43,176 bases of DNA, from positions 1 through 43,176 of IMG/VR virus record IMGVR_UViG_3300048064_000076, one strand, 5' to 3'. The translations under genes and the position numbers were made by a program. Origin of the DNA: a virus. Position 1 is the stretch's first letter, and each line of letters opens with the position of its first letter. This document shows, one piece after another, positions 23,935-43,176 of the stretch. The notes under the pieces were generated by a model. The model saw nothing but the letters and a program-made list of their open reading frames with translations. It had not been told where the DNA came from and did no database searches.

Positions 23935-24483
23935 CTACCCCACCATAAACATTTTATCGTCTTCAGTTGGCTCTCCTGAAGTATAGGGTACATGCTCAGT
24001 AATACCCACATTAAGAAGACGTACACCAGCACCATTAGAGTAAGTCTCAAATTGAACCTTAGCTTTAGTACCGTTACCTAGAGGTCCATCTTCCTCAAAG
24101 CTCCATAGTGTCTTCTTGTCCATACCGTTTGTAAGGTTGACAATGTTTGGTGCGCCACCGTAGTCCTTCTCAAAGGGCTTACCATAGCGGTCAGTAAAGT
24201 TCTTAACGTCTTTAACCATACGCTTGAGCTTCATGTACTTACCAATACCATACTGAGCATCTCCGTCGATAATACGGGGACTGTTCATTGGCTCTGGATC
24301 TAACCCATCCTCCAAGAGTTGGCTGATCTGATCTGGGTCTGTGAAGTAACCTTGTACAATATACTGACCACCTTTATCAGCAATACTCTTAGCCACACGA
24401 TTACCTTTAGGGTCTCCGTAATCAGCATTCTCAGGGAAGACTTTAGCGTATTGTAGTACCATATCCATTGTGTATTTAGCCAT
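23935..24483 (-). CDS. single-stranded DNA-binding protein, T7 gp2.5-like (probable)
   Basis: 182 residues in the replication block, downstream of DNA polymerase and upstream of exonuclease and endonuclease, the SSB position. The C-terminal half (LGNGTKAKVQFETYSNGAG, VRLLNVGITEH) fits the OB-fold pattern of gp2.5-type SSBs, and the C-terminus is acidic then hydrophobic (GEPTEDDKMFMVG). A promoter-like element lies at 24511-24530 just upstream, suggesting extra transcription of this gene, as suits a protein needed in large amounts. Confidence 0.65.
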   Translation of the reverse strand: MAKYTMDMVLQYAKVFPENADYGDPKGNRVAKSIADKGGQYIVQGYFTDPDQISQLLEDGLDPEPMNSPRIIDGDAQYGIGKYMKLKRMVKDVKNFTDRYGKPFEKDYGGAPNIVNLTNGMDKKTLWSFEEDGPLGNGTKAKVQFETYSNGAGVRLLNVGITEHVPYTSGEPTEDDKMFMVG

Positions 24484-24510: not shown

Positions 24511-24530
24511 TATTATATATTAGGCACCTA
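24511..24530 (-). promoter_or_regulatory. phage promoter-like element upstream of SSB (copy A)
   Basis: On the minus strand: TAGGTGCCTAATATATAATA. TAGGTGCC is followed by five bases and then TATAAT (24517-24512). It sits in the 88-base gap between polymerase and SSB. The same layout is found at 28821-28840 and 35916-35935. A half-copy GGCAC lies 19 bases farther upstream in inverted orientation. Confidence 0.6.
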
Positions 24531-24571
24531 AAAGAATAAAATATAAGTGCCTTTGGGTATTTTTTTACACT

Positions 24572-26407
24572 TTAGTGTATCTCTGCATAAGTGTTGCCAA
24601 ATTGCACATCTGTGCCTAATGGTACGTTCAAACTTAGCTCTTTATTAAGTTGAGATACTGCCTTTTCCATCTTATCTTTTACAACTGTTTCTCCTCCTTC
24701 TTCTACCAAGGCGATAACCTCATCGTGAAATTGTCCAATAGTCTTAATACCTTGCTTCCTACAGGCAGCTACCCAACTATCAAAGCAGAAAACACCAGTG
24801 CCTTGGTTTAGAGTAGAGAACCTGTCCTTTTCATTACGGAGGCTATACCAGAAGTTAGATACTGGGTTCCATAGCCAGAAACCATCTAGGCATTCCTTGA
24901 CCTTAGCACTCTCTGCAACCTTCTGTACTGACCAGTTACGTGACCAGAAGGCATCTTTGAGTGACCTAGCCTCACGTAAACTCATACCCGTCTCACGGGC
25001 CAGCTTATCGGCCCCTATGCCATATGTAGCACTGTAGTTCACTACCTTGTAGTTCTTACGCAGGGCTTTTAGACTACGCTCGCCTGAGTTATGTTTGTCG
25101 ATGTCATCTTGTGTGATAACACCAGCGTGTTTAGCTAAGTCTAAGTGTGGATCAAAGCCATCTCTACTCATTTCAGCTACATAGTCGGGGTCTAGTGGTT
25201 TCATGTAGTGACGCTTGGTTGTATCCTCTAGGCTAGTCATGTCAGCCCCGCATAAAGTGTACCCATCAGGTGCAGTCAGACACCCACGGATCTCAGCACC
25301 ATACGGCTTTTCCACTGAGGGTAGATTGACTAACGGTCTTGCATGACGGAAGCGCAGTGTGTTGGTAAATCCTGCGATTGTTGCTTGCACGTATCCATCA
25401 CGCTCTGCATCAACCATGCCTTTAAGAACAGAAATACGATGGCTGAGAACAGAAAGCCCGTCAAGAAGGTGTATAGCTTTGTCATAAGGTGCCAATCGTA
25501 AGACTGAGGGGCATAGTTCTGCATCCTTGCGGATTTGCGGAATACTTCTTTCATTCTTGCCATCCTTGTCCTTAACATATTTGTGAGTAGCTGGCTCCCA
25601 CCCTAATTTATACAGCCAGGATTTTACCTGATCAGGAGAGTTGGGGTTAGCTCTCTCAACCTTATGCAGCACTTGCATCTTTGTTGTAGTTACTGGAACT
25701 TTATATTGCCTACAAAGAGTCACCCAATTCTCACCAGCTACAGATAGCTCCCCATTCTTCTTTTCCATTGCTAGGGGTCTGTTTGCCATCTTGTACCTTT
25801 TTACTTCTGGCATAGCATCAGCTAACTGCTCAATCTTCTCAGCCTTCAGAGTCTCCCATACCTCTAAGTGTGTACGAGCTTTAGTCACGTCCAATTTCCA
25901 CTGAAGGGCCTCTTGCTCCGCTGCACACTCCATCTTAAAGGTTAAGTAGTCTATAAGACGAGCCTTGTTGTACTCATCATCATACAGCTTGTTTAGTTTC
26001 TTATCTAAAGTCTTCCACAACCTTGAGTTGATCTTAACATCCTCTTCACAACGGTGAGCGTACTGTTGTGGTGTTAGGCTTTGCCAGTCAGTAATCTTAG
26101 GCTTAGGTATCCCGTAGTCTTCGCCATAGCTCTCTAGTCCGTGCTTGCCACGGTTGTGATCTACATACCAAGCTACAGCTAGGGTATCTATGAGACGAGC
26201 CTTAACTTTTATATCTAACACTTTTTCCACTGCGGGGATGTCAAACCTGACAATACTATGTCCTATAAGTGTATCAACCTTAAAGACCTCACGCATCTCA
26301 TCATAGTCGTGTGTTGAGTTTACTGTCTTACCTAAGTCATCTGACCAAGACACTACGTGGATCTTTGTGCTGTTGAAGCCATCTGTTTCTATATCAAATA
26401 TTCTCAT
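24572..26407 (-). CDS. family A DNA polymerase with 3'-5' exonuclease domain
   Basis: 611 residues. The N-terminal exonuclease shows FDIETDG (Asp5, Glu7), IGHSIVRFDIPAVE and CEEDVKINSRL. The polymerase part has motif A at CGADMTSLED (Asp389), the O-helix at RKNYKVVNYSATYGIG (Tyr458 where E. coli Pol I has Phe762), and motif C at QFHDEVIA (His561-Asp562-Glu563). It is T7-like and somewhat shorter than the 704-residue T7 enzyme. It copies the genome with the primase-helicase. It overlaps the PP-loop gene through TAATG. Tyr at the O-helix is the T7-like state. Confidence 0.93.
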   Translation of the reverse strand: MRIFDIETDGFNSTKIHVVSWSDDLGKTVNSTHDYDEMREVFKVDTLIGHSIVRFDIPAVEKVLDIKVKARLIDTLAVAWYVDHNRGKHGLESYGEDYGIPKPKITDWQSLTPQQYAHRCEEDVKINSRLWKTLDKKLNKLYDDEYNKARLIDYLTFKMECAAEQEALQWKLDVTKARTHLEVWETLKAEKIEQLADAMPEVKRYKMANRPLAMEKKNGELSVAGENWVTLCRQYKVPVTTTKMQVLHKVERANPNSPDQVKSWLYKLGWEPATHKYVKDKDGKNERSIPQIRKDAELCPSVLRLAPYDKAIHLLDGLSVLSHRISVLKGMVDAERDGYVQATIAGFTNTLRFRHARPLVNLPSVEKPYGAEIRGCLTAPDGYTLCGADMTSLEDTTKRHYMKPLDPDYVAEMSRDGFDPHLDLAKHAGVITQDDIDKHNSGERSLKALRKNYKVVNYSATYGIGADKLARETGMSLREARSLKDAFWSRNWSVQKVAESAKVKECLDGFWLWNPVSNFWYSLRNEKDRFSTLNQGTGVFCFDSWVAACRKQGIKTIGQFHDEVIALVEEGGETVVKDKMEKAVSQLNKELSLNVPLGTDVQFGNTYAEIH

Positions 26408-27189
26408 TATATTCCTCTCATTAATTCTGGTGTCTCAAGCATCATATCTAGCTGCGGATGATCTAACTCCTCAAACTCTATATCACAGAAGTTACCACAG
26501 TCAGGCATGACTATTTTTTGTTTGTGTCCCTTTTGAGGGTCAAGCTCATCTAAGAAAATCCCTCTTAAACAAGAGTTGCCTACCTCCCTTTCAACCTTTG
26601 CCATCCTATCGAAGTGTTCGGGAAAGTCCACTCTGATCTTATTCCAGTATCCTGCGCCACCTTTAACACAACCAATGCAGTTATTATTCTTGTAGCCTAA
26701 CTTATACATGGTTGGAACTTCTATATTAGCCTCCTGTAAGAAGTACAGACACTCAGGTTTAGTCATCCTCTTTTCTATCAGGGGGAAGAAAGGTTTAGCA
26801 TCTGGATACTGTTCCTTGAAGCGTATGGCTCTGTTGACCTCCTTCTTGCTGTACTCAAAGCCAAAGATTTGACCTCTGTAGTCAAGCTCCTTCTCTAACC
26901 TCTGACGAACACGCTTCTTTAGTACAAGAGTACACCTAGCCCCAGCTGGACCATTAACATACTTATCTTTACTTATGACATCAAACTGATCTTTGTACTT
27001 TTCTGGCGCACGTTCAGTAACTATTTCACAACCATACCACTCTTCACATTGCTCTTTAAACCTAGCGTTGTCACTATGCGCAGAATCAATGCCAAAATAG
27101 ATAGGCTTAACCTCATCACCAAATTCTTGGATAGCAAGCTTAGTTGCGACTGCACTTGTAACACCTGCACTCCACCAAGATATTATCAT
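26407..27189 (-). CDS. PP-loop ATP pyrophosphatase / PAPS-reductase-like protein
   Basis: 260 residues. ISWWSAGVTSAVATKLAI near the N-terminus is a variant PP-loop (SGGxxS type) that adenylates a substrate. GPAGARCTLVLKKRVRQRL, NNNCIGCVKGGAGYWNKI and a C-terminal CGNFC supply conserved-looking cysteines that could hold zinc or an iron-sulfur cluster. It resembles phage proteins called phosphoadenosine phosphosulfate reductase-like, but real PAPS reduction is not implied. It lies between primase-helicase and polymerase, joined to both by TAATG overlaps, so base, nucleotide or tRNA modification is possible (inference). Confidence 0.65.
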   Translation of the reverse strand: MIISWWSAGVTSAVATKLAIQEFGDEVKPIYFGIDSAHSDNARFKEQCEEWYGCEIVTERAPEKYKDQFDVISKDKYVNGPAGARCTLVLKKRVRQRLEKELDYRGQIFGFEYSKKEVNRAIRFKEQYPDAKPFFPLIEKRMTKPECLYFLQEANIEVPTMYKLGYKNNNCIGCVKGGAGYWNKIRVDFPEHFDRMAKVEREVGNSCLRGIFLDELDPQKGHKQKIVMPDCGNFCDIEFEELDHPQLDMMLETPELMRGI

Positions 27190-28763
27190 TAAAGTACCTC
27201 TCTTAACATAAACGTATCAGTGCTGAATCTCAGCTTACCGGCCTTGCCTTCGATGGAACAGGGTCGGTTTTTTTGTACCGTAATTGTTGTAGTGTTCCTC
27301 TCTTCTAGTGTGTCAGCTTCCTTGTCCCGCTCTAAGTCCAAAACTACAGAAGCCCTCTGACCAATCATCTTGCAATACTTAGGATCTCCGTACTCATTGG
27401 TGTGAGCAATAGTTACAATACCTACGTTAAGGTCTGCTGCAAGTTTAGATAATCTAACCGATAAGTCAGCAAGCTGTTGTTCCTTACTCTCCTCTGAATG
27501 TCCAGTAACTACATCCTGTATCGGCTCAAAGAATATGAACTTACACCCGCAAGCCTGACTAAAGAAACGTATCTGGTCACATAAGTCATCAGCGCCTTGG
27601 TTCTCCTCAAGGTAGAACTGATATAGTAACTCATCCTTAGTTAGGGTCTCAATAGCTTTGATAACCTCTTCCTCTGAGTCAGCTTCTTCAATAAGATCCC
27701 TACGTGTAAGGTTGTCCTTGGCTTCATAAGACACAAGCCCAAGCAAAGAACGTAACTTAGTTTCTTCTAGGTGCCACGTAGCAATAGGAACCTTACGCTT
27801 AAGCATGTTGTACTCTAAGTATCGCATCACCTCTGTCTTACCTATACCTGTAGGTGCCTTGATAACTGTGAAGTGACCTTGCATAAGACCTAAGATCTTC
27901 TCATCTAGGGCCTCAATACCTGTAGGCACGTACTGGTGTTCTGGCGTATCCCGATACAAGTTAAGGAACTGCTCAGTAGTATTGAAGATATTGTCAGGTA
28001 CATACTTAGAAGAGTTGAACCAAGCGTTCTTAAACTCAGATGCTGCACCAGCAGTCAAGAAGTCATTGGCGTCCTTATATTTATTGTGAGAAACACGGTA
28101 CACTTTGTTAGGAAACATCTTAGAGATTTTTGCAGCAATACCGTTGCCAGCCTCATCATTGTCTACAGATAAGATAATCTTCTGAAAGCTATCTAGGTAA
28201 GGCTTACACTTCTCCCAAAGTGCCTTGGAAGGGGTAGCTGATGGTAGTGAGACTACAGGATTAAGATAGGTGTCCCTAGAGCTTAACATCTGGTAAGCAG
28301 ACATAGCATCTACCTCACCCTCTGTTATCGTTAAGATGTTAGAACAACCAGCAGTGAAGAAGTTCATACCGAATAACTCATCAGTCTTGAACCCCTTGCT
28401 TGCATAGAAATCCTTCTCCTTAAGATTCCTGGTTTTTATTCCCCCGCTGGGGTACACATAGTTCTGAGTACCGTTAGGGTATGTGAGGACATCGTACTGC
28501 TCCATAGTACGTTCTGATATACCTCGCATAGCTGTATAACTACCACCATCCTGAGCCTCTCTTAAGCTCTCTGAAGTCGTATTTCCACTGACGGGGTACT
28601 TGTCTTTAACCCAATCAAAGGTTGCCTTCCTAGAAGGATAACTACTCCCACAAGAGAAGCATTTACCAAAGCCTCTAGTGTTATAGTTAAAAGCATCTGA
28701 TGAACCACAGTCCACATAGGGACACGGTTGATCTCTCACATTATCATGTACATCTGTATTCAT
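27189..28763 (-). CDS. T7 gp4-like primase-helicase
   Basis: 524 residues. Zinc site Cys14, Cys19, Cys35, Cys38 (PCPYVDCGSS, GKCFSCG) recognises the priming sequence. TOPRIM residues are in ITEGEVDAMSAY and ILSVDNDEAGNG. The helicase half has Walker A APTGIGKTEV and Walker-B-like KFIFFEPIQD. It unwinds the fork and makes primers for the polymerase. It is the first gene of the replication block and is preceded by the promoter-like element at 28821-28840. Confidence 0.92.
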   Translation of the reverse strand: MNTDVHDNVRDQPCPYVDCGSSDAFNYNTRGFGKCFSCGSSYPSRKATFDWVKDKYPVSGNTTSESLREAQDGGSYTAMRGISERTMEQYDVLTYPNGTQNYVYPSGGIKTRNLKEKDFYASKGFKTDELFGMNFFTAGCSNILTITEGEVDAMSAYQMLSSRDTYLNPVVSLPSATPSKALWEKCKPYLDSFQKIILSVDNDEAGNGIAAKISKMFPNKVYRVSHNKYKDANDFLTAGAASEFKNAWFNSSKYVPDNIFNTTEQFLNLYRDTPEHQYVPTGIEALDEKILGLMQGHFTVIKAPTGIGKTEVMRYLEYNMLKRKVPIATWHLEETKLRSLLGLVSYEAKDNLTRRDLIEEADSEEEVIKAIETLTKDELLYQFYLEENQGADDLCDQIRFFSQACGCKFIFFEPIQDVVTGHSEESKEQQLADLSVRLSKLAADLNVGIVTIAHTNEYGDPKYCKMIGQRASVVLDLERDKEADTLEERNTTTITVQKNRPCSIEGKAGKLRFSTDTFMLREVL

Positions 28764-28820
28764 ACTAACTCCTTATTATTACTACCATACCTACAACAAT
28801 CGGCCTTAACGAAAGGGGGA

Positions 28821-28840
28821 CATAATACTATAGGCACCTA
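28821..28840 (-). promoter_or_regulatory. phage promoter-like element upstream of primase-helicase (copy B)
   Basis: Minus strand TAGGTGCCTATAGTATTATG: TAGGTGCC, five bases, then TATTAT (28827-28822). It lies in the 108-base gap between the sigma-like gene and the primase-helicase, about 60 bases before the start codon. The layout is the same as copies at 24511-24530 and 35916-35935. Confidence 0.6.
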
Positions 28841-28871
28841 CATTTCCTTTTTATCAGTTGTAGAATTACAT

Positions 28872-29465
28872 TTAGGTTACCTGTTGCAATTTAGTCACAA
28901 TGGACCTTAGCTTAGAGAAGATCTTAGTTTCTCTGAGTACAATAGCTGGCTGACTAATACCAAAGAAGTCTCCCATATCTACTTGGGTCATACTCTCAAC
29001 AAACTTCATATGTAACAACAACCTCTCATCTTCATCTAGCTGCAACTCTATCTGCGTATTCAGCTTATTATAGAAGTCCGTTTCCTCGTAGTTTTCCTCG
29101 ACTGTCTCGTTAAATAAAGACGCTGTATCAAAGGGTATAATCTCAGAGCTAAGGATGTTTCTTAGGTAATTAATACCGTCCTCGCTCCAAGTGTGATCTC
29201 CAAACTCCTCTGTGTCTATATCCCTACTGAGCCTACGTGACACATCAGAGGCAGGGATAGCGACTGGAAAAACATCTAGGTTAAGGTAGTCGTGCATCCT
29301 ACGATTAGCCTCACGATATAATTTCGCTGGATGGGGTTTGGGGTCTTCAGCTAGGATCTCGTAGCATTGTAATACACCCTCACCTACAAGGTCGTCATAG
29401 TGGTTAGGGTTTTTATATCTACGGGCTAGGCCCTCACACATCATCATAATTGTTTCTGGTTTCAT
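28872..29465 (-). CDS. sigma-70-family RNA polymerase sigma-like factor
   Basis: 197 residues. The N-terminal part (GLARRYKNPNHYDDLVGEG, then VLQCYEIL) resembles sigma region 2.1-2.2, the part binding the RNA polymerase clamp; ANRRMHDYLNLDVFPVAIPA follows. The C-terminal part (LDEDERLLLHMKFVESMTQ, VDMGDFFGISQPAIVLRE) reads as region 4 with its helix-turn-helix for the -35 or upstream element. The phage has no RNA polymerase gene, so the factor would redirect the host enzyme. It stands just before promoter-like copy B. An activator built from sigma parts is the alternative. Confidence 0.7.
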   Translation of the reverse strand: MKPETIMMMCEGLARRYKNPNHYDDLVGEGVLQCYEILAEDPKPHPAKLYREANRRMHDYLNLDVFPVAIPASDVSRRLSRDIDTEEFGDHTWSEDGINYLRNILSSEIIPFDTASLFNETVEENYEETDFYNKLNTQIELQLDEDERLLLHMKFVESMTQVDMGDFFGISQPAIVLRETKIFSKLRSIVTKLQQVT

Positions 29466-32954: not shown

Positions 32955-32982
32955 CATATAGGTATTTCCATCGGTGGGTCAA
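32955..32982 (-). promoter_or_regulatory. sigma-70-like early promoter of the leftward operon
   Basis: Minus strand TTGACC (32982-32977), 16-base spacer, TATATG (32960-32955). It stands just upstream of the first leftward gene. A copy of the dispersed element fills the spacer, so a protein bound there would block or alter this promoter. Confidence 0.55.
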
Positions 32983-33104
32983 GGGGTGACTACAAGATAA
33001 TTTCGAGTCTGTATTTCCACTGTGGGGGTATGGCTCTTAATTTCCACTGCGGGGGGTCTACGGTCATTTTCCACTGGTGGGGTCATTTTCCACTGGTGGG
33101 GGTC
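32964..33104 (+). repeat. five-copy cluster of the dispersed element
   Basis: Plus-strand copies at 32964-32980, 33013-33029, 33040-33058, 33066-33084 and 33085-33104. Typical form ATTTTCCACTGGTGGGGTC. The last two are a 19-base tandem repeat. The inner part CCACTGGTGG is nearly a dyad, flanked by T on one side and G on the other, which gives it a direction. All copies have the same orientation. With 32958-33502 otherwise without a gene, this is the upstream control region of the leftward operon. Confidence 0.8.
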
Positions 33105-33244
33105 GTGTGACTTTTTTGCAACTGACTCGCTTTTAGGTTGTGTATACAATGGCATATTCCCCTCGCCTATAGGTTGTGGTTACAAAAATCACTCGCCACA
33201 ACCTAAGGTTGTAACGTGTATGCTGCAACGCAGAAACATTTTTA

Positions 33245-33309
33245 GGTTGTATCGTTCAACCCCTAAACTATCTATACCCTCCGGTTGTATAGTTCAACCC
33301 CTAAACTAT
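33245..33309 (+). repeat. 27-base direct repeat, two copies
   Basis: Copies at 33245-33271 and 33283-33309 agree in 26 of 27 positions (period 38). Each starts GGTTGTAT, continues GTTCAACCCCTAAACTAT after one variable base, and contains the inverted pair GGTTG / CAACC. Confidence 0.85.
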
Positions 33310-33320
33310 ATTTTTGTTAC

Positions 33321-33397
33321 TCGCCTTAAAAGTGTATAAATCCAGGCGTACAACTTATAGGCGAGTTAATTTCCAGTTCGCCTTAAACGTGCATAAA
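33321..33397 (+). promoter_or_regulatory. two promoter-like repeats before the rightward module
   Basis: TCGCCTTAAAAGTGTATAAA (33321-33340) and TCGCCTTAAACGTGCATAAA (33378-33397) agree in 18 of 20 positions, 57 bases apart. TATAAA / CATAAA could serve as -10 hexamers for rightward transcription into the membrane protein at 33503. No clear -35 is visible. Confidence 0.45.
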
Positions 33398-33502
33398 ATA
33401 AAGTCTACAACCTTGAATAGCAAAATGGCTCTCAACTATTGAAAAGAGAATAGGCAAGGTTTAGGTTAGTTTTACACGCAACATATTATAAGGAATAAAA
33501 AA

Positions 33503-35825: not shown

Positions 35826-35915
35826 AAAAAAAGATTTGTGGGAAAACAAAGACTTAATAAGATCTCACGAATTGTTTCAATATATTTCACAAATGTTACT
35901 TATATTATTTCATTT

Positions 35916-35935
35916 TAGGTGCCTATATATATATG
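35916..35935 (+). promoter_or_regulatory. phage promoter-like element facing the terminase operon (copy C)
   Basis: TAGGTGCCTATATATATATG: TAGGTGCC, five bases, then ATATAT. It matches copies A and B and, like them, lies in a gap upstream of a gene block, here 215 bases before the terminase small subunit. Its orientation is rightward, opposite to A and B, as suits the late genes. Confidence 0.6.
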
Positions 35936-36106
35936 AAAGGGTATTTCGCCAGGTCTATAGTTGTAGGTATGGTAGTAATATAGAGATATAGTATATACTA
36001 ATGTATAGCATGTGTACTCTTTAGTACCCTCCCCTGTTCTTCCTCTGTCAACCATAGTGAACCTAGGCCCCTATACTTAGGGATGTAGTTATGTACTGGA
36101 TGTGAC

Positions 36107-36149: not shown

Positions 36150-36554
36150 ATGCCAGCTGGTAAAGATAAACTCCCATATAGTAATATTATAGCCAAGAAG
36201 GTTAGAGAAGGTATTCGTAGTGGAGTATCTGTTAAAGATATTTTGTCGTCTATCCAGAAGTATCAGAATGCCCCCTCAAGTACAGCTACCTTCTATAAAC
36301 TATATGGTGAGGACATAGCTGAGGAGAAGGCTTCTATTGTAGGTGCTGTAGGTTCTGTCGTTGTACAGCAAGCATTAGAGGGTGACTTCAAGTCCCAGGA
36401 ACTCTTTCTTCGTAGTAAGGGAGGATGGAGTCCAACATCTACAGTTAATGAAGTAGATCAGGTAGAAGATCCCGATGTAGATGAGTCAGCTATAGACTCC
36501 CTGATGACCTTATTAGGTAAGACCCGTACAGATGATAACAGCGCAAGTACTTAG
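36150..36554 (+). CDS. terminase small subunit
   Basis: 134 residues directly before the large subunit. VREGIRSGVSVKDILSSIQK, then SSTATFYKLYG, is a helix-turn-helix-like DNA-binding part; a central helical segment (GSVVVQQALEGDFKSQELF) is followed by KGGWSP, a pattern common to small terminases, and an acidic tail. It recognises phage DNA for packaging. It overlaps the large subunit by 23 bases. Confidence 0.75.
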   Translation: MPAGKDKLPYSNIIAKKVREGIRSGVSVKDILSSIQKYQNAPSSTATFYKLYGEDIAEEKASIVGAVGSVVVQQALEGDFKSQELFLRSKGGWSPTSTVNEVDQVEDPDVDESAIDSLMTLLGKTRTDDNSAST

Positions 36555-37875
36555 AGACTTACCAGATTCTGATGTAGCTGCACTATTACAAGAACTAGGC
36601 CCCAAGAAGACAGAAGAGTTACAACACAACTGGGAATTTTGGGCTAGACCTGAACAGTTAGAGCCAGAGGGTATATGGAATGTTTGGGTTGCACTTGCTG
36701 GTCGTGGCTGGGGTAAAACCCGTGCAGGTTCAGAGTGGGTCAGACACAGGATCAAGAAGGGCGATAAGATTGTCCACTGTGTTGCGCCTACTAAAGGTGA
36801 TGTTCGCAGGGTTATGGTTGAGGGTGACTCAGGTTTACTCAATGTCTGTTGGAAGGGTGACAAGACATACCGTGGCAAACACATTGGTTTCCCTGTATGG
36901 TCACCCACGAACAATACTCTTACATGGGAGAATGGCTCAAAAGCAGTCTTCTTCTCAGCGGAAGACCCAGAACGACTAAGGGGGCCGCAAGCATATAGTG
37001 CATGGACTGATGAGTTATGTGCATGGAGGAATGCCCAAGAAACTTGGGATATGCTACAGTTTGGTTTACGTTTAGGTAAGCGTCCTCAAGTATTTGTAAC
37101 GACGACACCTAAGACAACCAAACTGATACGCACAATACTAGACGATGATAAGACTACTATTAGCAAAGGGAGTACCTATGATAATGCAGCCAATCTAGCA
37201 GATACCTTCTTAGACGCAGTAAAGAAGACGTATGAGGGAACAAGGTTAGGTAGACAAGAACTATATGCAGAAATACTTGATGAAGCATCTGGCGCATTAT
37301 GGAATAGACAACAACTTGCTAAGTGTGAGATAGACAAGGATGACGTACCATCTCTTAATAGGGTGGTTATTTCTATTGATCCGGCTATCACATCCAATGC
37401 AGAAAGTGACATGACTGGTATTGTAGTTGCTGGTGTAGATGTCAACGGCATAGCTTATGTAATAGAAGACCACACAGGTAGATATACTCCTCAACAGTGG
37501 GCATCCAAAGCTGTAGAACTCTATAGAGAACATATGGCTGATAGGATTGTAGCTGAAAGAAACCAAGGTGGCGATATGGTTCGTCACACATTACACACAG
37601 AAGATGAAACAGTTCCAGTAAAGCTCGTACATGCATCCAGAGGGAAGATGGCACGGGCTGAACCTGTCTCTGCATTATATGAGCAAGATAAGGTTAGACA
37701 CGTAAGAGGACTTAATGACTTAGAAGATCAGATGGTACAGTGGGAACCTCTAGGGTCCATAGGCTCACCAGACCGTCTTGATGCTTTAGTTTGGGCTATA
37801 ACGGACCTATCACTCAATGGCTACGCAAAACCTACGCTGAAGCTAGCGTATAGTAGCGCCAAGGGACTAAGATAA
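36532..37875 (+). CDS. terL: terminase large subunit
   Basis: 447 residues. Walker A is AGRGWGKT (residues 56-63), Walker B is in YSAWTDELCAW, and the coupling region in VFVTTTPKTTKLIR. The nuclease domain has ISIDPAITS and, near the end, IGSPDRLDALVWAITDL as metal-binding positions. It cuts concatemers and pumps DNA into proheads. The size is that of the shorter siphovirus large terminases. The start lies inside the small subunit gene and the stop overlaps the portal ATG. Confidence 0.93.
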   Translation: MITAQVLRDLPDSDVAALLQELGPKKTEELQHNWEFWARPEQLEPEGIWNVWVALAGRGWGKTRAGSEWVRHRIKKGDKIVHCVAPTKGDVRRVMVEGDSGLLNVCWKGDKTYRGKHIGFPVWSPTNNTLTWENGSKAVFFSAEDPERLRGPQAYSAWTDELCAWRNAQETWDMLQFGLRLGKRPQVFVTTTPKTTKLIRTILDDDKTTISKGSTYDNAANLADTFLDAVKKTYEGTRLGRQELYAEILDEASGALWNRQQLAKCEIDKDDVPSLNRVVISIDPAITSNAESDMTGIVVAGVDVNGIAYVIEDHTGRYTPQQWASKAVELYREHMADRIVAERNQGGDMVRHTLHTEDETVPVKLVHASRGKMARAEPVSALYEQDKVRHVRGLNDLEDQMVQWEPLGSIGSPDRLDALVWAITDLSLNGYAKPTLKLAYSSAKGLR

Positions 37876-39678: not shown

Positions 39679-42600
39679 ATGGTGACGCTCGCAAATCGAG
39701 TAAAAGTTGCAACTGCGACTACTGGTACAGGTATTATTACGCTGGGGTCAGCGGAGGACGGTTATCAAACCTTCGCTGGCGGCGGTGTGTCTAATGGTGA
39801 CACTGTAAGGTACGTCATAGAAGACGGTAGTAACTTTGAGATTGGAAGCGGCACATATACGGCTTCTGGCACTACTCTATCTCGCACGGTTAGCGAAAGC
39901 AGCAATTCAAATAATGCGATTAACCTTAGCGGCTCTGCTGTAGTATTTATTAGCGCCACTGCTGAGGATTTACCGTCTGTCACTGCTGGCACATTAACTA
40001 AATCCTTTGCCAGCGGTGAGACTGCCAGCATCACACTATCTTCGGCTGTAAGCCCAACGCCTGTTGTTTCTGCAACTAAAGAGGTGCCGCAAACGGGTAT
40101 AAGCAGCAAAGGCTCATGGGACGTTGCGTCTAATGGGGCAAACTATGACCGCCTCAATTCTGCTTATAATACTACACTGACGCCTAGCTTAAATATTGAT
40201 ATACAAACACCAGCAACTTCATACAGCGGAGACAGCCTTAGTATCTCAGGTGATGACAGTTCTGCGAGAGGTTTAGCCTTTAAACCAGATGGCACAAAAG
40301 TTTTCTATTGTGGTTTTCAATATGACAGGGTTTACCAGCGTACTTTATCAACCGCTTGGGATATCACAACAGCAGGGTCTGCAACCTACAGTTCAGTTTC
40401 TGGTCAAGATGGCTTTCCAACAGGCATTGCCTTCAAGTCTGATGGCACAAAAATGTTCATGTGCGGTGCGGGTGATGGACAAATAAGTGAGTACAACCTT
40501 ACGACAGCTTGGGATGTTACAACACTATCCCATGTGCGTGATGTTACTCCTTCGGGCATAAACGAGAACCTTGATGATATTAGACTAAACGATGATGGAA
40601 CTAAGCTATTCATATATGGAAACGTACAGGATAGAATTTACGAATTTACGATGTCAACGGCATACGATCTTAGTACATTATCCAACAGCGGAAACTACCT
40701 AGACTTTTCTAACGAAGAAGGTAACCAAGGTGGAATGGATTTTTCTAACGATGGAAAAACCTTGTTTATTTGTGGCATTGGGGTGTCTAGGGTAAATGAA
40801 TATACTCTAACCACTGCTTATGACATTTCGACAGCAAGTTATGCGTCTAAGTATTTTTATATTAGTAGTCAGGGTTCGCCCCATTCAGTTATAATGGTTC
40901 CAAGCCAACAGAAAATGTTCACCATTAGTGATTCTGCTGATAGAATTTATGATTATACGTTAGGTGTTACAGACTTTTTGTCTTTAGGCACAGGCTCCTT
41001 TGCATCTGGAGACATAGGTAAAACCATCGAGGGCAATGGCGGCGTTGCGTTACTGACTGCTGCCGATGGGTCTTACATTACAACGACATCATTTACTGAC
41101 AGTAGCACTATTGCCGCTGGTAGTTGGTCTATGCACAGTGTTGTAGTCAATGCAACTGATGGCCTTGAGATGAGTAACGGAATTACAGACGCTTTTAACA
41201 TAGCCGGTATTCCAACAGATATTGTGCCAGAAAGCAAAGATTTAACTAGTTATCTTAGTGGATATACTGGTGCTGAAAGTTCTCTGATATTCAAACCAGA
41301 TGGCTTGAAATTGTTTTTTCTTAGTTCAAGCGGTAGCGCAGGTCGTATTCAATCTTTTACGCTCACAACACCTTTTGATGCCTCTACTATACAAACAGGC
41401 TCTAACGCATATGTTTCAGTTTCGGGTCAATATCCGCAAGGATTGTCAGTTAAATCAGACGGAACCCGTTTTTACTGGTTCAGCAGTCAGTATAATAAAT
41501 TTTATCAGGCCACTCTCACCACTCCTTGGGATTTAAGTACCGCTGGTAATGAGCAAGATGTAAGCATAAACGACAACTTTGAATACGGCTTGGTAGTAAC
41601 AAGCGATGGAACAAAGGTATATGCCGCAGACGGAAACGCAGACATTGTTTCGTATGATTTAGGGACTGCTTGGGACATTACAACTGTTACAAACAAAGTA
41701 ATAAACACAACAGTTCTTGCATCCATACCATCCTATAGCCTTACTTTAAATACCGACGATACAAAGTTATACTTTGTCGATATAAATAGGTATATGCGTG
41801 AATATACTTTTGGGACTAAGGGCGATATTTCTACTCTTACTTTAACACAATCAAGCCCTAGATTTTACTATGAATTAACAAACTTTAGTTCCTCAATACA
41901 GGCAGGAGTAGCATTTAACAGCACAGGGAATAGATTTGCCGTATTTAACAATGGGGGTATTGTTTATACTTTTAACGTAGGCTCTATTGTATCAGGCACC
42001 GGATATATCCCATCCATCACAAACTCTGGCGGTCAGATTGACACCGAATTTTGGACTGACATTAACAGCATGACTACCGACGATATTGCTGGTGCTGGTG
42101 CAGCTTATTACGCTGTTTCTACGGATGATCGAACTACTTGGTCGGTTATTAAAAATGGCAGCGGTGTACGTCCGATTGTACGGGATAACAGCGGCACATG
42201 GCAGTACAATAGCGCAATTGCTATTACTAACGCTTGGAGTGTAAGTGACGCAGTATATAGTACGAACTACGCTATAACTCAAGATGCTGCCGTAAGGAGT
42301 ATGTTTTTTAAGCCAGATGGTACTAAGATGTATGTAGGTGGCGTTTCTAACCAAACCATATACGAGTACAATTTAGGTGCGCCTTGGGATGTAAGCACTT
42401 CTGTATATAGTAACAACAGCAAAGATATAAGCGGTCAAGATACCGCTGTGACAGGTATTTTCTTCAAGCCTGATGGTACTAAGATGTATATTCTTGGTAG
42501 TACTGGGGATGACGTCAACGAATACAATTTAAGCACAGCTTGGGATGTTTCTACCGCAGTCTACAGCCAAAACGAATCTATCAGTGGTCAAGACACAAGT

Positions 42601-43176
42601 CCTAGCGGCCTATTTTTTAGGGCTGACGGCCTTAAAATGTATCTTACAGGCAACGCTGGGAATGACATAAACGAATATACGTTAAGCACTGCTTGGGACA
42701 TATCAACACTTACATACGTTCAAAACAAAAGTGTTGGCGGGTCAGGCGCAGGTCAAGACAACACCCCTGTCGGTCTTTTCTTTAAGGACGATGGCCTCAA
42801 AATGTACTTTGCTGGGGAAAACCAGAGGTTTATAAACGAATATACGTTAAGCACTGCTTGGGATATCTCAACAGCCTCTTATACGCAACGCTTTGATTTT
42901 TCTTCCCAAGAACTTTATCCAAAAGCCCTTTCTTTTAAACCTGATGGAAGTAAAATGGTTCTTCTTGGGGAACAGGGCAACGATGTAAGCGAATACAACA
43001 TAGGCACACAATCGTTCACAACATCAACAACGTGGACTTCAGCTACAACCAATACTGAACTAGCTGCACTGCAACAGGCACTGACCAATGTTTCTTTTAA
43101 CCGCATGGACAAGGCCCAGCTAGAGGCTGTTACAGACCCAAATCATTATACGTTAGGTGATAGCTTAGATTTGATG
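39679..43176 (+). CDS. beta-propeller-repeat virion adhesin (5' part, runs off the window)
   Basis: 1166 residues to the right edge, no stop. The N-terminal 100 residues ([20 protein letters not shown] and [20 protein letters not shown]) are a capsule- or fibre-attachment domain common in marine phages. Then follow about 15 blades of roughly 45-55 residues of the type [12 protein letters not shown] ... [18 protein letters not shown]. They fall in three groups, near residues 180-430, 510-770 and 850-1110, with spacer domains between. Each group may form one propeller. A terminal module ([20 protein letters not shown]) precedes the edge. The rest of the gene is probably 1-142. Receptor or glycan binding is inferred from the fold. 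Confidence 0.75.

Follow-up and report, generated by a model that had tools for sequence, protein, structure and literature searches.

Sigma factors encoded by phages are a known kind of regulator, since phiEco32 gp36 and phage 7-11 gp47 have been shown to direct the host core polymerase (PMC8948821, PMC4331800); the promoters of these two phages occupy similar genome positions and have different consensus sequences (PMC8948821). In bacterial sigma-70, the -35 element is known to be read by R584, E585 and R588, and the extended -10 by H455 and E458 of region 3.0 (PMC2613000). Roseobacter phage CRP-6 is the type phage of a podovirus group that is abundant in coastal waters, the paper on which makes no mention of a sigma factor or of promoters (PMC6918029).

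The window analysed here (the whole of a stand-alone virus record, 43,176 bases in length) has CRP-6 as its isolated relative, with a DNA polymerase that is 67% and a large terminase that is 85% identical. It encodes a protein, P0001, which is very probably a phage sigma factor that redirects the host core polymerase to three promoters (A, B and C; Table 1), the letters of which have been rewritten together with those of the sigma. An interpretation along these lines, that a phage sigma reads the promoter-like motifs, had been offered in an earlier sequence-only reading; it is supported by the fold of the protein, the matching of sites A, B and C within genomes, the tracking of promoter letters by individual residues, and the promoter found in a sister group.

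A sigma-70-family protein

P0001 belongs to the sigma-70 family and comprises region 2, a region 3.0-like part and region 4. The NCBIfam sigma70-ECF model (TIGR02937) matches residues 13–188, covering regions 2–4 jointly, above its cut-off (E 6e-12), and also matches all 45 aligned relatives. Region 4 exceeds the cut-off of Pfam Sigma70_r4 (PF04545, E 3.4e-6), a model which additionally matches 43 of the 45 relatives at E ≤ 0.01 and identifies the region 4 helix-turn-helix. Pfam Sigma70_r2 gave no significant match for P0001 alone, and matched 13 of the 45 relatives. The relatives' profile matches the structures of SigB, FliA and SigF at 2e-11 to 3e-8, with the region 2.1/2.2 DDLVxEG stretch of the family aligning to sigma-B region 2 in the profile comparison. 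Region 2 is further marked by the core-binding DL(V/I)xEG stretch, in which D25 and G30 are invariant and E29 is near-invariant.

An AlphaFold2 model of P0001 (mean pLDDT 86.8) displays the helices of region 2 and the helix-turn-helix of region 4, together with a region 3.0-like helix (H74-80) and a further helix (H95-106). ECF (group 4) sigmas consist of regions 2 and 4 and have no region 3; P0001 exceeds the cut-off of the ECF model TIGR02937 but contains these two additional helices. The best 50 Foldseek matches to this model are all sigma factors or sigma domains, the best 50 VIA-align rows are sigma-factor chains (Z 9.1–11.5), and most of these matches span nearly the entire protein. By eye, the segment IPASDVSRRL, with its invariant P71, appears to resemble IPVHMIETI of sigma-70 region 3.0. 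The region 2-like and region 4-like parts that had been noticed from the letters are recovered by the family models and by the structure matches. In bacterial genomes, a search for relatives returned 12 pattern matches, none of which was confirmed.

The sigma gene and its surroundings

The sigma gene reads from 29465 to 28872, inside a leftward replication operon, flanked upstream by thyX and a small gene and downstream by the primase-helicase. Its coordinates had been given exactly in the sequence-only reading, and only the minus strand is a correction. The gene had also been placed directly upstream of promoter copy B, which does follow on the same strand, 14 nt past the stop codon. The reported absence of an RNA polymerase gene likewise holds: a search of the record for a T7-type RNA polymerase (PF00940) was empty, the same search detecting that of Roseobacter phage CRP-7, as positive control, at 2.5e-58, and the record gives no sign of T7-type transcription by a single-subunit RNA polymerase of its own.

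Other features of the window were also observed. A PAPS-reductase-like gene (26407–27189) stands between the helicase and polymerase genes; many relatives lack it or have something else in its place. An open reading frame with repeated units (39679–43176) extends for 1166 aa or more before it runs off the contig end, and probably encodes a large virion protein. The interval between the two divergent operons (32959–33420) is repeat-rich, containing copies of ATTTCCAC-GGGG, two of GGTTGTAT-GTTCAACCCCTAAACTAT and two of CTCGC-TAGGTTGT; blocks resembling these repeats are present in CRP-6 and in a contig of the sister group described below (G008), and the interval is a candidate origin or early control region.

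Table 1. Coordinates of the sigma gene, the predicted promoters and neighbouring genes in the window
Feature	Coordinates	Strand	Description
Phage sigma factor gene (P0001)	28872–29465	-	Single open reading frame; 197 aa
Primase-helicase	27189–28763	-	PHROG 239, 1.1e-94; first gene after promoter B
Family A DNA polymerase	24572–26407	-	PHROG 17, 2.5e-101; upstream of promoter A
SSB-like gene	23935–24483	-	First gene after promoter A; putative function, from position and synteny
Small terminase subunit-like gene	36150–36554	+	First gene after promoter C; putative function, from position and synteny; no significant family in the family search
Large terminase subunit	36532–37875	+	PHROG 979, 7.9e-38; 84.5% identical to that of CRP-6
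Promoter A	24521–24548	-	ACTTATA, 11 nt, TAGGTGCC, TA
Promoter B	28831–28858	-	ACTGATA (28858–28852), 11 nt, TAGGTGCC (28840–28833), TA
Promoter C	35898–35925	+	ACTTATA, 11 nt, TAGGTGCC, TA

A predicted two-box promoter at three sites

The motif TAGGTGCC, earlier proposed as a promoter element, is real but constitutes only half of the promoter, which is completed by ACT[T/G]ATA 11 nt upstream to give ACT[T/G]ATA-N11-TAGGTGCCTA. Three perfect copies of this full form are present in the window, all of them intergenic. The bare 8-mer TAGGTGCC occurs seven times (1.4 expected; none of 100 shuffles reached seven), and was ruled out as a marker since four of the seven copies are intragenic and without a -35 box.

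Promoter B is situated 69 nt ahead of the primase-helicase start, a position that is conserved among relatives, with letters that are rewritten with each sigma lineage. Promoter A lies between the DNA polymerase and SSB-like genes, 39 nt before the start of the latter, and promoter C precedes the small terminase gene and the structural operon by 226 nt. Beyond the promoter, in the downstream direction, sites B and C (28770–28840 and 35916–35990, respectively) also share a second block, GTTGTAGGTATGGTAGTAATA, which site A does not carry.

Promoters match the sigma of the same genome

Scans of a viral collection yielded 58 close loci and then more than 200 relatives, together with relatives of the DNA polymerase having the same gene order. 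Sites A and B are found in the same places in all clades, with different letters. When compared in a fixed register (7-mer, 11 nt, 8-mer, 3 nt), the A and B sites of one contig agree at 16.5 of 18 positions over the 59 contigs in which both are present, versus 13.0 ± 0.16 for shuffled pairings, the highest of 10,000 of which reached 13.8. The agreement extends to single letters: all three sites have TAGGTGCC in the window and TGGGTGCC in the L063/L213 contig. Site C matches A or B of the same genome at 16–18 of 18 positions in each of the eight genomes that could be checked, one case being a phage in which a 99% identical terminase is combined with a sigma of only 44% identity.

One clade (Ib) has a -10 box in common with the clade of the window, while TTGTTA is its -35 box at B and C and, in all but one case, at A; the sequence of the region 4 helix is SQQG[I/V]DQRE in clade Ib, as opposed to SQPAIVLRE in the window clade. 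An exact scan of the viral collection with the clade Ib promoter identified 27 contigs, 26 of which are recognised family members, with every family match located 64–69 nt ahead of the helicase, 38 nt ahead of the SSB-like gene or 217–243 nt ahead of the small terminase; the 27th is a stretch of only 654 bases, too short to judge. Some contigs with the clade Ib pattern, being short, do not reach the sigma end or do not include the sigma gene. A looser window-type pattern (14 specified bases) also matched 22 contigs not recognised as family members, once each, which is the number that chance would give in a collection of that size.

The version of the promoter carried by each lineage accompanies its own version of the sigma, so the proposed correlation of gene and motif is borne out among these relatives. 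In three contigs (L015, L096 and L139) site A is out of step with the sigma and site B agrees with it, which could be due to recombination between a linked sigma–B unit and site A, or to assembly chimeras. For L135 no B site was obtained, and L137 fits more poorly than the others.

Two further sequence features were seen near these sites. In five contigs belonging to several sigma clades (L051, L055, L059, G001 and G005), the leaders after B and C contain many ACTTAAGT, ACGTAAGT and ACATAAGT octamers. In L050, L052, L055, L057 and L058, which are of one clade only, the interval from promoter A to the SSB-like gene contains a short inverted repeat, GCTGTAAACCCTACAGC.

Residues that follow the promoter letters

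Covariation was analysed across 49 distinct lineages, which are related and so are not independent samples; for nine contigs the register was chosen manually. Differences in the -35 box follow those in the region 4 helix (partial Mantel r = 0.52, p = 0.0002, with region 3.0 and the remaining protein removed), and differences in the -10 box follow region 3.0 (partial Mantel r = 0.29, p = 0.0008), the latter association being weaker and more mixed with phylogeny. Partial Mantel cross terms (-35 with region 3.0, -10 with region 4) are absent. An unbiased column scan for the -35 box (99% permutation limit 0.198) ranked positions 172 (r 0.54), 177 (0.41), 173 (0.38) and 176 (0.34) highest. In an alignment with the C-terminal sequence of sigma-70, residues 172, 173, 176 and 177 of P0001 correspond to R584, E585, R588 and Q589, respectively. 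That the -35 changes track residues aligned to the -35 readers of sigma-70 is consistent with the earlier proposal that the sigma may read these promoters.

The two associations are also apparent in individual combinations, with NKMWVSR accompanying TGTTAC beside six different -10 boxes, and IPKHNVARRL accompanying TATCCCT beside three different -35 boxes. Proteins less than 50% identical that share at least three of the four residues have -35 boxes differing at 1.9 of 7 letters, versus 4.3 for all pairs of such identity. By our count, the family has at least 15 distinct -35 boxes and at least 15 distinct -10 boxes. As judged from covariation, this would be a two-box promoter of sigma-like spacing in which the region 4.2 helix reads the -35 box and region 2.4/3.0 the -10 box.

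These patterns bear on two other roles for P0001. It is unlikely that the protein is a helix-turn-helix regulator for which only region 4 matters, with the boxes serving as an operator and host sigma-70 initiating. Such a role would account for region 4 being the only part that Pfam finds in P0001, and for TAGGTGCCTA being nearly an inverted repeat, but the inverted repeat is not retained in other lineages (e.g. AAGCACTT and AGGTACAT), and the two boxes, which have a sigma-like spacing, covary with different parts of the protein, one with region 4 and the other with region 3.0; the extent of the sigma70-ECF match, the alignment of the DDLVxEG stretch to sigma-B and the nearly full-length structural matches to sigma factors also argue against it. 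We regard as more improbable still a sigma appropriation like that by T4 AsiA/MotA, whereby the host sigma-70 holoenzyme is remodelled and only its -35 contact replaced: although a generic TATA is kept at the -10 end in most lineages, the upstream half of the -10 box varies by lineage and tracks region 3.0 of the phage protein, which moreover has its own region 2.

Module exchange and relatives without a detectable sigma gene

The large terminase can be up to 100% identical between phages with sigmas that are only 44% identical. This gene (36532–37875 in the window; also L198 and L199) is 99–100% identical among phages with distant replication and sigma modules, reflecting strong module exchange. 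On contigs that include both sigma and terminase, the box at site C is the one that goes with the resident sigma. In G005, for example, the terminase is 99% identical to that of the window and site C is GTTGACA-N11-GTATCCCT, like A and B of the same contig.

Sister contigs, among them G008 and G012, carry the same set of structural genes (large terminase 92% identical) along with an unchanged replication gene order, and neither profile nor Pfam searches of these fragmentary contigs identified a sigma gene. As the contigs are fragments, the absence of the gene from this group is likely rather than proven. Site A in 13 contigs of the sister group is TTGACA-N18-TATACT or TATAAT, matching the sigma-70 consensus at 11–12 of 12 positions; in sigma-bearing contigs the best sigma-70 consensus score at site A is mostly 8–9, and at most 10. 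By eye, site C of G008 has TTGACA and TATATA at 16 nt.

The location of the blocks at the borders of gene modules that are exchanged might suggest landmarks for recombination or packaging and not promoters, but this is the least probable of the alternatives, given that the block letters follow the DNA-reading residues of the sigma, that exchange landmarks should stay alike between partners whereas these differ between phages with 99% identical terminases, and that the SSB site is occupied by sigma-70 promoters in relatives without a detectable sigma.

A proposed transcription switch

In the mechanism we propose, host promoters would drive the early genes, including that of the sigma. The window scan found no copy of the two-box promoter ahead of the sigma gene itself, which is therefore probably transcribed at an early stage by way of a host promoter. 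Nothing clearly recognisable as a host promoter was seen ahead of the early operon, and a sigma-70-like scan of the early region gave sites no more numerous than in shuffles. As its fold suggests, the phage sigma would then bind the host core RNA polymerase, and may turn on together the replication genes (B), the SSB–exonuclease–nucleotide genes (A) and the structural operon (C). The middle/late timing that the sequence-only reading had envisaged for such a switch is suggested by gene order. Over evolutionary change, drift in sigma specificity, or entry of a sigma by recombination, would be followed by rewriting of all three promoters to match, and absence of the sigma gene by a host sigma-70 promoter at the SSB site at least.

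More tentatively, and leaning slightly against the proposal taken as a whole, we suggest that the family might comprise fast-diversifying, mutually orthogonal sigma–promoter pairs (with the 15 or more boxes of each kind counted above), in which -35 and -10 reading are separable modules of one protein and the three promoters are converted together, with orthogonality itself selected for; competing phages and host anti-sigma defence are examples of what it might counter.

How sigma specificity and promoters change together without breaking the genome is an old question. Here dozens of natural intermediates document the co-change down to -35-contacting residues, including swapped modules and lineages in which no sigma was detected, and provide a natural catalogue of matched protein–promoter pairs across dozens of related marine phages. 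The new part is this matched series of at least 15 specificities; in the limited library of literature searched, no many-membered matched series with reading residues, natural swaps and losses was found. The switch probably explains transcription switching in CRP-6-type phages, which have been described as common in coastal waters (PMC6918029). If confirmed, these phages would offer many ready-made sigma–promoter pairs, and the promoter of an uncultured phage would be predictable from its sigma sequence.

Comparison with known systems

CRP-6 gp14 (MK613348), annotated as a hypothetical protein, is a true relative of P0001, being 36% identical over residues 1–88; its gene likewise precedes the primase, and CRP-6 has promoters at all three of the corresponding sites, with boxes (GTTGACT and CAGACGTC) unlike those of the window. 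Zobellviridae (PQ867839 and PQ867840) have a related replication module with a sigma-annotated gene next to the primase and DNA polymerase. Their sigma-like proteins show weak helix-turn-helix similarity only, and profile comparison (probabilities of 24% and 3%) does not support them as close homologues.

With sigma-70 groups 3 and 4 (FliA/SigB/SigF and ECF, respectively) P0001 has region 2, region 4 and the overall fold in common, its nearest neighbours by sequence being SigB/SigF/FliA region 4 and the ECF superfamily model. Unlike those groups, the present family is phage-borne, approximately 170–206 aa in length, and has a 3.0-like IPxS/IPxH segment with no clear full region 3.

The arrangement most resembles that of phiEco32 gp36 and 7-11 gp47, in which a small phage sigma serves a handful of phage promoters before middle/late genes, as is predicted here. 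Comparison of the family profile with a single gp36 sequence detected no homology (probability 0.2%, E 0.34), and gp36 as a close homologue is unsupported. The promoters of phiEco32 are single-element and those of 7-11 are GTAAtg-16-aCTA, whereas those described here are two-box; and where only two specificities are documented for phiEco32 and 7-11, the present family has at least 15, with a residue-level pattern.
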